Assembly (NCBI GenBank): GCA_018873225.1
Contig: JAEILZ010000004.1
Coordinates: 1,302,001-1,366,000 of the forward strand
Direction of reading: 5' to 3'
Length of the DNA stretch: 64,000 bases
From: [Phialemoniopsis] sp. UDSM-2020
Taxonomy: Eukaryota; Ascomycota; Sordariomycetes; Thyridiales; Thyridiaceae
This document shows, piece after piece, positions 2,230 through 11,663 of this stretch. The position numbers were made by a program, and so were the translations under genes. The notes under the pieces were generated by a model, which did not search any database, was not told the DNA's origin, and saw only the letters and a list, made by a program, of their open reading frames with translations. Numbering within the stretch: the stretch's first letter is position 1; every line of letters begins with the position of its first letter.

Positions 2230-2403
2230 GACGTCAAGTGGGTGACAGATTAGTTGACGGTTTGCCTTCTCAACCTACCTCAATCCCTAACTGATCACCC
2301 AGGATTATCCCACTACCAAAGCGCATATGGATCATCCAGCTTGTTAGTAAATAGGTAGAGGTTGATCCTAAACCGTCGACCTTTCTGGCCCCCACTTGGA
2401 CGT
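2230..2403. mobile_element. MITE copy 1, 164 bp, with terminal inverted repeats and 5-bp target duplication
   Basis: The element spans 2235-2398. Its ends are a 29-bp inverted repeat (2235-2263 against 2370-2398, 23 of 29 positions matching by eye) starting CAAGTGGG and ending CCCACTTG. It is flanked by the direct repeat GACGT at 2230-2234 and 2399-2403. It has no coding capacity. A second copy at 61410-61574 aligns along its whole length, and a degraded one lies near 47054-47188. It sits just 5' of the MTQ1-like gene. Confidence 0.85.
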
Positions 2404-6645: not shown

Positions 6646-7503
6646 ATGGCAGAGGTATTCGGCATTGTGACTGGCGCTGCGAGTATCGCAACCCTCTTCA
6701 ACCATTGCGTCGAATGCTTTGAGTATATCCAGCTCGGCCGTCACTTCGGGAGCGACTTTCAGAAGTGTCAGCTGAGGCTCGACGTAGCTAAGTCGCGTCT
6801 CAGCAGATGGGGCGAGGCTGTTACTATCAGGGGCAGCTCTCGCTTTGCCGCGGGTTCACCAGCTGAACGCGAGATGGAGCTCGTGCGGCAGATTCTTGAA
6901 GAAACCCTGGACCTTTTTCGAGCGGCATACAAGAAGTCTCGACGATACGAATCGACGGCGAAGCCGCAGGACTTGGGCCGGTACGAGGAAAAAGATATGT
7001 CACCGATCCCCAAGGAGTTACACGACCGATTCAAGCTTCTCGCTCAGGCAAGACACAAAGATATGAACATAGTCAAGAAGACTGCATGGGCTTTATACGA
7101 CAAAAAGGATTTCGATAGGATTCTGGAACAGATCGCAAGCTTTATAGCCGACCTAGAGAATATATTCCCGGTCGACGGAACCTGTTACCAGCTAGCACGA
7201 ATGGAGATCGATGGAGTTGAGGAGGAGTCGAGCTTGGCAACACTCAAAGAAGCGATCGGTGATGTGGACAAGGCTCTGCTTGATGCTACGACACGAAAGT
7301 TGCAGAAACTCGCCGGTACAAATACTGTCGGTCATCTCAAGGTCGCCAATATGGCCAATGTGCAAATTGGTAACGAGTATAGCGAGGCTATAATGCTCCA
7401 TGGTATTGCTGTTACGGACAGGACCGTGAATTCGGCAGGAATAGTGGAAGCTACAGATTCTTCCAGAGTTCAAATCGGAAGTAGATTTGGTGTGCGATTC
7501 TAG
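6646..7503 (+). CDS. HET-s-like HeLo-domain cell-death effector with C-terminal prion-forming domain
   Basis: Single exon, 285 aa. The N-terminal ~220 residues match the all-helical HeLo domain of Podospora HET-s/HET-S. They begin with a hydrophobic stretch (GIVTGAASIATLF) followed by the conserved FEYIQLGRHFG and AKSRLSRWGEAV segments. Residue 33 is His. The last ~60 residues hold two pseudo-repeats in the register of the HET-s beta-solenoid: R1 at 226-248 (N226, L231, V239, I241, G242, N243, Y245) and R2 at 262-285 (N262, V267, V275, I277, G278, F281), joined by a 13-residue linker. In the known system, amyloid folding of this tail exposes the HeLo domain, which damages membranes and kills the cell. 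The next gene downstream is an NLR with a matching motif. The start is the ATG opening the conserved N-terminus. R2 ends about four residues earlier than in HET-s. Function is inferred from the family. Confidence 0.93.
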   Translation: MAEVFGIVTGAASIATLFNHCVECFEYIQLGRHFGSDFQKCQLRLDVAKSRLSRWGEAVTIRGSSRFAAGSPAEREMELVRQILEETLDLFRAAYKKSRRYESTAKPQDLGRYEEKDMSPIPKELHDRFKLLAQARHKDMNIVKKTAWALYDKKDFDRILEQIASFIADLENIFPVDGTCYQLARMEIDGVEEESSLATLKEAIGDVDKALLDATTRKLQKLAGTNTVGHLKVANMANVQIGNEYSEAIMLHGIAVTDRTVNSAGIVEATDSSRVQIGSRFGVRF

Positions 7504-8258
7504 GGCGATGCAAATGGAATCGATCAATTGCTTGGGGCTCCGCGAAAATGTAGCTGGCCATCTCGACATGAGCTTGCTGGGGTTGACGGCAGTGAGAGGA
7601 AACGAGACCTCCGCAATGTTGCAAATCTCGTATGACAGCAACACCCCCTTCCTTTTTTTCTTCTTCTTCTTCTTTCGGGTAAGCTTGTAGCGTATAAGTC
7701 TGGAGGGCCCGTACTTTACGAAGCACATACACAGCTGTGGCGTTCTGACCACGTGGTTTTGATTATTGCTGCTATGTTGACGTTTATGGCATCTCTCCAA
7801 CTTGACTTACCATTGGCTTGCTTAGAGTTCAGCTCTATGCAGACCTGATAGACCAAAGTTTAAACCTCGATATTTCCAGGGCCGAATTGCGATTCGAACA
7901 ACCTTCAGTTAAGATCAGATAATTCAAGCTAACAAGAGTTCAGAGCTCTTCTCATGCAATTGTCGTCGTCAAGAGCACCAGATCGACAGAGATTATATCA
8001 GATTGAACATTGCACTCTACGAAATTCTTGCCACTGTGGTGGTCAGCGATGTACGACGTCAATATGCTGAGTTGCCTCAGGCGGCCATATGGCACACTTC
8101 AGCCTGACAAAATTGCTTGATCACCCTCCTGCTGTTCATCTGTAGAGATTTCCCACAAAGCCGAAGCTATAGGCTCAGGCTACACAACACATTACTGGAG
8201 GGAATTCAGAACTGTATCTATATTCTCAGATGTGATTACTGATAAATGTACAGGCAAT
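7504..8258. other. intergenic between HeLo effector and NLR
   Basis: About 0.75 kb between two genes on the same strand. It includes a pyrimidine-rich run with TTC repeats near 7650-7675. It probably contains the effector's 3' UTR and the NLR promoter. An unseen 5' exon of the NLR could lie here; the sequence just before 8253 ends in TACAG, a usable acceptor. Confidence 0.45.
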
Positions 8259-11200
8259 ATGGATGCCCACCCCAGTGTGGAAAGCTGGGGGCGACCCAGC
8301 CAGCCCCCAGCAAACGCATGTCCTAGATTTTGTGAGGCCAGCAACCTTGAGTACGCGGACAATGGTATTGCTTCATATATTCCCCGAGATTCAAACAGCA
8401 TACACAGTGTACAGACCAACGGGAGGTCCTCTGTTCATGTGGGCAACATTACATATAACTGCAATACAACGCCTCCCGGAGGACGAGCATTGTCGTTCAA
8501 TGACGATTGGAAGAAGAGACTTCTCGACTCACTCAGGTTCGACCAGGATGACACTCGCCGTGACACAGTCGATTCGGCAATTCCCGGTACCTGTAAATGG
8601 TTGCTTAAGAGCAAGGCTTATCAGGATTGGCTAGATCTAGCCCAACTCAAGGAGCATAATGGCTTCTTGTGGGTAAAGGGGAAACCTGGGGCGGGAAAGT
8701 CAACTTTGATGAAGCTTGCTCTCTCTGAAGCAGAGAAGAAATACAAATACTCAACCACGGTCGTCATCAGCTTCTTCTTCAACGCCCGAGGTAATGATAT
8801 GGAAAAGTCTACCGCCGGCATGTATAGGTCTCTGCTTTGGAGGCTTCTCGAAAACAACCTAGATCTTCATGCGGTTCTTGACGTTGCTAAAAGGAGATCC
8901 TGGATCCGAGATGAAAGCTACCAATGGACAATCGAGCGGCTGAAAGAACTATTCATGGATACGATTCAATGCTTGGGATCGCAGCCTTGCCTTTGCTTCG
9001 TGGATGCTCTGGATGAGTGTAACGACACAGAGATTAGGGATATGCTGTCCTTCTTTGAAGATATCTGTGAGCAGGCAATGGAGAATGGAATTCAATTTCG
9101 AGTTTACTTCTCAAGCAGGCATTACCCAAACCTCGGCGTGAAACATCACATCGCTCTGGTCCTCGAAAATGAAGAGGGGCACAAAGACGATATCTCGAAG
9201 TATATCAAACAAAAGCTAGACATTGGAAAGAGCGCAGTAGCTGAGCTCATCCGGGAAGAACTCCAAACAAAGTCACGCGGTGTGTTTCTATGGGTTGCTC
9301 TAGTGGTCGGAATTCTGAGTAAGGACTACACGAAGGGCAAGGTCAAAGAACTGCAACAAAAACTCGACGAGATACCCGGTAACCTGCACAGCCTATTCTA
9401 CCGAATCCTAACACGAGACGAGAATGATAGACACAAGCTCATTCTTTGCATTCAATGGATGCTTTTTGCGAGACAACCACTGACACCGGAGCAACTTTAC
9501 TTTGCCGTACAGTCGGGGGTCGATCAACATCAATTATCAGACTGGGACCCCACCGAGATCACTGAAACGAATATCTGGGAATCTCTGCTTGACTCTTCCA
9601 AGGGACTCGTCGAACTTACCCAGTCCAAAGTCAAGAAGACCGTGCAATTCATTCACGAGTCAGTCAGAGATTATCTCCTCAAAGACAACGGGCTCCACGA
9701 GATCTGGCCTGATACGAGAGACAATTTTTTGGGTCACAGTCATGACAGGCTGAAGCACTGTTGTGCCACATTTATGAGGCTTGACATTTCCCGCGTACTG
9801 GATCTTAGCAAACGACTCCCGCAAGCAAAGTCGGGCGAGGCTGCAGCCATCCGCCGGCAAGCTGACAAGAATTTCCCGTTCATGGAGTATGCTACGCAAA
9901 ATATTCTATACCATGCCGACTTAGCACAAAGTGCGAGTGTTCCTCAAGACACCTTCCTTAGGGACTTTCCGCTTGAACTCTGGATCAAGCTGAGTAACTT
10001 GTTCGAAAAGCATGAGGTGCGACGGTATACACCAAACGCGAAACTTCTCTACATATCGGCAGAGCGAAACCTGCACCGTCTCATCGCCATTCATCCGTCT
10101 GCCCTCTCGTATCTCTATATAGGGGACGAGCGTTACGGTCCGCCCCTATTTGCGGCCCTCGCAACCGGCAGCAATGAAGCCGCAAAAGAATTTCTGAAAG
10201 CCGAAATAGAAGCGAGGGCTGCCGATGATATTTCCAGACACTTGTGCAGTCTAATTCTACGAAGCGATGACGCATGGCCCATCTTCAAGCGTGACTTCAC
10301 GTTCTCAAGAAGTAAGAGTGTCGAATCATATTTAAAGGAGCATAGCAGCACCCTTTTGCACGCCTTGTCTTTCATCAACAATCACAATGTCTATACGCAG
10401 GACAGACGAACATTATTGCCCCAAGCCTTTGTCAATATGTGTGACGGGAATGGCCGAACGGCGTTGTCTTATGCCGCTGAACGGGGGGATGAAGTTACTG
10501 CCAGGCTCCTCATTGAAACGGGAAAGCCCAATCCCGACATCGTGGATAATAGCGGCCGGACAGCACTGCATTATGCTGCCCTCGAAAGCCATGAGGGTAT
10601 GATTAGGCTTCTTGTTGAGATGGGAAAATCCAATGTCAACGGGCAGTATCATCACGGTCAGACCGCATTGCTTTACGCCTCTATCGAGGGGAATGTAGAT
10701 GCTGTCAGGATGCTTATTGAGATAGGCAGGGCCAATGTTGATATACCGGACAACAACGGCCGGACAGCATTATCTCACGTTGTCGCCTGGGGTCACACAG
10801 CTACTGCTGAGCTTCTCATTGAAAAGAGTGAGGTCGATCTTAGCATGCCGGACGACAACGGCCGGCCCGCCTTATCGCATGTCGCTGGCAGCCTCACCAC
10901 GAATGAGGCTACCATCAAGTTGCTACTGAAAGCATGCAAGGACGATATTGATACAATAGACAAGGATGGCCGTACAGCATTGTCACATGCTGCGTACTGG
11001 GGTTGTACCGATACTGTCGGCCTGCTCCTGGAGATCGGTGAGGCCAATGTCGACGTACAAAATAAGGATGGATGGACAGCGTTGTTCCATGCAGCCACGA
11101 GTCATGAAACAAAGGAGTCTACTATCAGAATGCTCCTCGGTATAGGCAAAGCCAGTGTCGATATACGAGACAAGGATGGCCGAACAGCTTTCATCCACGC

Positions 11201-11663
11201 AATCAAGAGTCAACAACCAAATGAAGCGATCTTGAGACTCCTCACAAACAAGGCTAATATTGACCTGCAAGATTATTTTGGTTCGACAGCGCTGATGTAT
11301 AGCGTTTGCAACGATTTCTGCAGGATCGAGACTGCAAGTCTGCTCCTTGAGATGGGGGCCGATGTCGACATGCAAGATTATCGTGGCTGGACAGTCTTGA
11401 TGCATATCATGTATTCGGAGCATAGGAGCGAAACTGTTAGGCTGATTCTTGAGCGCGGAGCCAATCCTGATATGCAAGACAATTTTGGCTGGACAGCCCT
11501 GATACACGCTGTTTTCCGGACGAGGGAGGATTTTGTCAAGCTGCTCGTGGAGGTGGGCAAGGCCAATGTTGACATACGAGATATCCACGGCAGAACAGCG
11601 TTGGCGTTCGCTACTTCCAGAAAGTGGCTTAGCGGGACATGCATCAAACTCTTACACTCGTGA
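8259..11663 (+). CDS. NLR receptor: HET-s-type amyloid motif, NACHT ATPase, ankyrin repeats
   Basis: Single exon, 1134 aa from the first in-frame ATG (the frame is open from a GTG at 8232). Residues 46-68 form a motif that aligns without gaps to the R1 and R2 repeats of the upstream HeLo protein (N46, S47, V51, S57, V59, V61, G62, N63). The NACHT domain follows, with Walker A GKPGAGKST at 141-149 and Walker B CLCFVDALDECND at 244-256. A helical region ends in the QFIHESVRDYLL segment typical of fungal NACHT-ankyrin proteins. Residues 729-1134 hold about eleven and a half ankyrin repeats. Family knowledge: such NLRs oligomerise on ligand binding, and their N-terminal motif templates the partner's amyloid fold. 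The immediate upstream neighbour is that partner. A missing 5' exon is possible because the motif begins 45 residues in. Confidence 0.92.
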   Translation: MDAHPSVESWGRPSQPPANACPRFCEASNLEYADNGIASYIPRDSNSIHSVQTNGRSSVHVGNITYNCNTTPPGGRALSFNDDWKKRLLDSLRFDQDDTRRDTVDSAIPGTCKWLLKSKAYQDWLDLAQLKEHNGFLWVKGKPGAGKSTLMKLALSEAEKKYKYSTTVVISFFFNARGNDMEKSTAGMYRSLLWRLLENNLDLHAVLDVAKRRSWIRDESYQWTIERLKELFMDTIQCLGSQPCLCFVDALDECNDTEIRDMLSFFEDICEQAMENGIQFRVYFSSRHYPNLGVKHHIALVLENEEGHKDDISKYIKQKLDIGKSAVAELIREELQTKSRGVFLWVALVVGILSKDYTKGKVKELQQKLDEIPGNLHSLFYRILTRDENDRHKLILCIQWMLFARQPLTPEQLYFAVQSGVDQHQLSDWDPTEITETNIWESLLDSSKGLVELTQSKVKKTVQFIHESVRDYLLKDNGLHEIWPDTRDNFLGHSHDRLKHCCATFMRLDISRVLDLSKRLPQAKSGEAAAIRRQADKNFPFMEYATQNILYHADLAQSASVPQDTFLRDFPLELWIKLSNLFEKHEVRRYTPNAKLLYISAERNLHRLIAIHPSALSYLYIGDERYGPPLFAALATGSNEAAKEFLKAEIEARAADDISRHLCSLILRSDDAWPIFKRDFTFSRSKSVESYLKEHSSTLLHALSFINNHNVYTQDRRTLLPQAFVNMCDGNGRTALSYAAERGDEVTARLLIETGKPNPDIVDNSGRTALHYAALESHEGMIRLLVEMGKSNVNGQYHHGQTALLYASIEGNVDAVRMLIEIGRANVDIPDNNGRTALSHVVAWGHTATAELLIEKSEVDLSMPDDNGRPALSHVAGSLTTNEATIKLLLKACKDDIDTIDKDGRTALSHAAYWGCTDTVGLLLEIGEANVDVQNKDGWTALFHAATSHETKESTIRMLLGIGKASVDIRDKDGRTAFIHAIKSQQPNEAILRLLTNKANIDLQDYFGSTALMYSVCNDFCRIETASLLLEMGADVDMQDYRGWTVLMHIMYSEHRSETVRLILERGANPDMQDNFGWTALIHAVFRTREDFVKLLVEVGKANVDIRDIHGRTALAFATSRKWLSGTCIKLLHS
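10443..11660 (+). repeat. ankyrin repeat array inside the NLR gene
   Basis: About eleven full repeats and one partial repeat of roughly 33-36 codons, each with a DG(R/W)TAL-type start and a LLxEIGxAxVDI-type end. Several units still share DNA-level stretches (for example near 10961 and 11171, or 10749 and 10853). This points to past duplication within the array. Confidence 0.9.

Follow-up and report, generated by a model that had tools for sequence, protein, structure and literature searches.

A probable HET-S/NWD2-type cell-death gene pair with an ankyrin-repeat sensor in [Phialemoniopsis] sp. UDSM-2020

Does a HET-S-like gene that lies beside a gene for a NOD-like receptor (NLR) form with it a cell-death system of the kind described for HET-S and NWD2 in Podospora anserina? 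The question is raised by a 64-kb stretch of [Phialemoniopsis] sp. UDSM-2020 (contig JAEILZ010000004.1, positions 1,302,001 to 1,366,000; hereafter the window), which we analyzed together with the rest of the genome (44.18 Mb, 11 contigs). On its forward strand an effector gene (ATG at 6646, TAG at 7503) is followed, after 755 bp, by a co-oriented sensor gene (ATG at 8259, TGA at 11663). An initial annotation had read the two as a HET-S/NLR pair that is complete, may be functional and has another sensor domain; its coordinates, spacing and orientation agree with the start and stop codons that we found, and its proposal is consistent with the tests described below of domains, motif, adjacency, open frames and predicted folds. 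We consider that the pair is very probably a HET-S/NWD2-type two-gene cell-death system belonging to the canonical HET-s motif subfamily. The features of the pair are as follows (aa, amino acids; pLDDT, predicted local distance difference test).

6646..7503, + strand: effector gene, HET-S-like protein of 285 aa, single open exon (open reading frame of 310 aa from stop to stop; PF14479 and PF11558 over cut-off)
6661..7245, + strand: HeLo domain, aa 6-200
7297..7491, + strand: prion-forming-type region, aa 218-282 (PF11558; gapless phmmer alignment; strands of the model)
7321..7383, + strand: repeat r1, aa 226-246 (34.9 bits, combined r1+r2 matrix)
7429..7491, + strand: repeat r2, aa 262-282 (43.4 bits, combined r1+r2 matrix)
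8259..11663, + strand: sensor gene, NACHT-ankyrin NLR of 1134 aa, single open exon (open reading frame of 1180 aa; PF24883 and ankyrin families)
8394..8456, + strand: motif r0, aa 46-66 (13.5 bits; best of the 4 PF17108 places listed, below cut-off; in a low-pLDDT tail)
8586..9119, + strand: NACHT-type nucleoside triphosphatase domain, aa 110-287 (PF24883; Walker motifs)
10419..11660, + strand: ankyrin sensor of twelve helix pairs, from about aa 735 (Pfam ankyrin families; AlphaFold2 model; Foldseek)

The effector had been described as a HeLo protein with a two-repeat C-terminal motif, and both ends of the protein exceeded the curated Pfam cut-offs: the N-terminus with PF14479 (E 4.1e-49) and the C-terminus with PF11558, HET-s_218-289 (E 2.4e-18). 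The phmmer alignment with 2kj3/2mus runs without gaps from residue 218, the strands of the prion-forming-type region form two rungs in the predicted model, and the modeled HeLo domain matches the fold of 2wvo. HeLo residues H33 and E86 are present, as is E at 23, and the repeats keep N at motif position 1 (N226, N262) and G at position 17 (G242, G278). The closest named relatives (P0001, P0002, P0004; 55-56% identity) come from Colletotrichum and Microdochium and carry het-s-type names.

In the sensor protein we observed a NACHT-type domain (PF24883, E 1.2e-31), whose Walker A sequence GKPGAGKS lies at aa 141 and whose Walker B-like motif lies at aa 246, followed by ankyrin families (E down to 7.9e-68, from about aa 719 in Pfam); at the N-terminus no domain exceeded its Pfam cut-off. 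The C-terminal WD repeats by which NWD2 is strictly recognized are replaced here by ankyrin repeats. The AlphaFold2 model (pLDDT 75.6; predicted template modeling score 0.50) is below pLDDT 50 over aa 1-77, the predicted disordered tail that holds r0, and its top Foldseek matches are ankyrin structures (e.g., 5y4f_A, TMt 0.82). A search for tandem arrays of highly alike ankyrin repeats found none within the gene and one row outside it. The NACHT-ankyrin assignment and the matching motif of the initial annotation thus stand, and only the motif's placement at the extreme N-terminus gives way, since r0 occupies aa 46-66; as PMC9815663 describes accepting NLR motifs up to position 150, a start at aa 46 is not unusual by that rule. 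The three closest paralogues in the genome are all NACHT-ankyrin proteins (C4, 47% identity; C1, 45%; C7, 42%), and the motif was not found in these three loci as fetched (best -5.2 bits). Because the closest of them (C4 4167982-4169868) is a PNP_UDP-NACHT-ankyrin protein with an N-terminal PNP_UDP domain, r0 appears to occupy the place of a relative's other front end. Judged from sequence, the same NACHT-ankyrin chassis carries different front ends within this genome.

To score the motifs we used the 120 listed effector homologues, with the window protein omitted, to build a 21-column matrix; 3 gapped rows of each repeat were dropped, which left 117 segments each for r1 and r2, and duplicates were collapsed. 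Only r2, r1 and r0 scored above 3 bits in all six frames of the window. None of 20,000 shuffles of aa 1-100 of the NLR reached the score of r0 (maximum 10.7), and the listed NLR relatives (120 of 3471), scored over their first 200 residues, gave a best value of -5.0 and a median of -24.4 bits. Across roughly 150 kb of fetched loci, some of them overlapping, scores above 0 occurred only at two HET-S loci, the window and the locus on C10 described below. A PF17108 search of the genome listed 4 places, the best being the N-terminus of the window NLR (19.6 bits against a cut-off of 24.3, E 0.07) and the third the effector's own r2; the r0 of the C10 locus was not listed. A protein search with residues 40-125 of the NLR returned 39 candidates, none at E 0.001, and so revealed no r0-NACHT-ankyrin relatives elsewhere by sequence, a result that is limited in sensitivity and does not prove that there are none. 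When the genome was searched with the 31 residues around either r0 motif, each matched only itself, so that the two are linked through the profile alone.

In its layout the pair resembles HET-S/NWD2 of P. anserina, where a HeLo effector with r1 and r2 also lies beside a NACHT NLR that carries one r0 and lacks an effector domain, and the two HeLo domains are about 50% identical. It differs from that system in having ankyrin rather than WD repeats, in its same-strand rather than divergent orientation, in the position of r0 (aa 46-66 vs. 3-23) and in repeats without salt-bridge pairs. The novelty that the initial annotation had implied cannot be upheld. According to PMC4344463, HET-S homologues occur in 55 genomes, in 46 of which a gene of the signal transduction ATPases with numerous domains (STAND) class that carries a motif is their neighbor, and some NWD2 homologues bear ankyrin repeats, a likeness to the window NLR by description. 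Both same-strand and divergent pairs are described in PMC3321046, and PMC4986451 reports prion-like motifs on NACHT-WD, NACHT-ANK and NB-ARC-TPR proteins. Also comparable is the sesA/sesB/HET-eN (sigma) system of Nectria haematococca, in which effectors and a neighboring NACHT-ankyrin NLR have an amyloid-type motif in common (PMC3321046); it departs from the window pair in using the sigma motif and effector domains of other kinds. NLR motifs are reported to be low in charge (PMC4344463), and the window r0 agrees, with a single charged residue when His is left out of the count.

Two loci of the genome match PF11558, the window and a locus on C10. The second pair and the copies of a repeat element that lie in the window and in the C10 locus are as follows (MITE, miniature inverted-repeat transposable element).

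C10 332093-337461 (L013 2093-7461), divergent: second HET-S/NLR pair, a HET-S-like gene and a NACHT-WD NLR with r0 at aa 3-23
Window 2238-2397, - strand: MITE-like copy
L013 2587-2746, - strand: MITE-like copy, inside the C10 pair locus

Like the window pair, the C10 pair joins a PF11558 HET-S-like protein to an NLR bearing r0 (22.8 bits, combined matrix), and its effector exceeds the cut-offs of PF14479 and PF11558 across its two pieces. Unlike the window pair, it has the divergent NACHT-WD layout of P. anserina het-S/nwd2, and both its genes are apparently interrupted. The NLR has an in-frame TAG inside the NACHT domain and a shift of frame ahead of the WD part, and a 169-bp segment, which stems from a repeat family and may be spliced as an intron, interrupts the reading of the effector. 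The MITE-like element of this family is 164-165 bp long, with terminal inverted repeats CAAGTGGGTG/CACCCACTTG and 5-bp direct repeats at both ends in 19 of 21 aligned copies; at least 40 near-full-length places have 83% identity or more, query included (40 of 236 candidates scored). The C10 pair therefore looks decayed as read from its sequence. In het-s strains of P. anserina, too, nwd2 is a pseudogene that bears the scar of a transposon (PMC4344463). We found no support for a recent duplication of the two pairs, the effectors being 49% and 40% identical over two parts. In a tree of residues from about 126 (61 rows, of which 59 were drawn from the 120 listed homologues and the other two are the window protein and the C10 effector's second piece), both effectors sit on long branches in a single 9-row clade (98/91) that also contains proteins from Colletotrichum and Microdochium.

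Several observations fit the reading of the window pair as a HET-S/NWD2-type system less neatly. None of the three HET-s salt-bridge pairs is found in its repeats, which have G-G, A-T and M-S instead. At motif position 18, N is kept in r1 and r0 and replaced by S in r2 (S279), and the arch G at position 10 is present in r0 and missing from r1 and r2. Salt-bridge pairs are likewise lacking in 18 of the 120 listed homologues, and PMC4518210 describes charge pairs at varying positions across the family; membership does not require salt bridges. Moreover, the window r0 is nearer to r2 and r0 of C10 than to its own r1 and r2: out of 21 residues it shares 4 with its own r1 and 6 with its own r2, compared to 6 and 7 with r1 and r2 of C10, and its BLOSUM62 sums are 20 and 18 with its own repeats, compared to 21, 32 and 39 with C10 r1, r2 and r0. 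The trend, reported in PMC4518210 as a trend and not a rule, that r0 resembles its cognate repeats is thus not seen in the window pair, and pair-specific coevolution of the motifs, which we had considered, is unsupported. The same sums would suit a shared network in which signals from the window NLR reach both of the genome's HET-S-like proteins, or mainly that of C10, rather than its neighbor alone. We regard such a network as unlikely, as adjacency favors the neighbor, score differences over 21 residues are small, and the repeat-interrupted C10 effector gene may yield no full protein.

The weaker motifs could also mean that the window pair is decaying or silent, with frames still open and signaling lost. 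On most matrices its motifs score below their C10 counterparts (r1 34.2 vs. 47.5 on the r1 matrix; r2 46.0 vs. 56.1 on the r2 matrix; r0 13.5 vs. 22.8 on the combined matrix), and the lack of salt-bridge pairs and the long tree branch point the same way; the r2 matrix, however, ranks the window r0 above that of C10 (8.5 vs. 2.9). Against decay, the coding sequences are free of stops over 855 (effector) and 3402 (NLR) bases, despite 11 + 11 and 34 + 76 stops, respectively, in the other two frames, the NACHT motifs are retained, and the pair genes show no strong skew of the type left by repeat-induced point mutation (RIP) compared to the remainder of the window; we consider this reading quite improbable. 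The genome is rich in NLRs, with 117 PF24883 matches counted at exon level (some being pieces of one gene), so that a HeLo gene could by chance have as its neighbor an NLR that is unrelated to it and has a motif of similar looks. With so many NLRs, about 1 locus in 200 should have one within 1 kb (a rough estimate), yet both PF11558 loci do, and both neighboring NLRs carry r0. Considering neighbor density, r0 in both NLRs, PF17108 and the matrix statistics, we reject chance adjacency with a chance motif as extremely improbable.

How a HET-S/NWD2-type pair of this composition would act can be proposed by analogy with the work on P. anserina (PMC3321046, PMC4344463, PMC3531502). Ligand binding by the ankyrin repeats would open the NLR, upon which the NACHT domains would oligomerize and the r0 tails could stack into a beta-solenoid amyloid. 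This amyloid would then template r1 and r2 of the effector, and the HeLo domain would free its N-terminal helix and permeabilize the cell membrane. The purpose of the system is probably immunity or non-self recognition.

The pair lies, as had been proposed, between housekeeping genes, with leucyl-tRNA synthetase (LeuRS) upstream on the opposite strand and an amino-acid permease downstream. Elsewhere in the genome we noticed further HeLo genes. Of 11 HeLo matches, 3 come from the two pairs; among the other 8, 5 have a same-strand NACHT match within 0.3 kb, and in 4 of those 5 it is in the same open frame. Matches with HeLo and NACHT in one frame are, by their predicted domains, all-in-one HeLo-NLRs. 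For the sigma-type NLR family PF17106 the genome gave no match at E 0.01; the control was equally silent, so that this result says nothing on absence.

Since ankyrin-bearing NWD2 homologues, both gene orientations and motifs on NACHT-ANK proteins have been published, the window pair adds to a known kind; its architecture is not new, nor is the mechanism. A more tentative thought, which we hold to be possible and on balance doubtful, is that the death channel of this lineage has changed sensors: the canonical C10 pair would be decaying, with its stop in the NLR and its MITE-like insert in the effector, while the ankyrin pair is still open and, with almost no charge at the ladder positions of r0, r1 and r2, may form a separate seeding channel. 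The window pair offers a well-preserved ankyrin-sensor case for a family that conserves its amyloid link and can exchange its sensor. As a canonical WD pair, apparently decaying, is found in the same genome, this fungus allows direct tests of sensor exchange and of how specific seeding is between the two related pairs.
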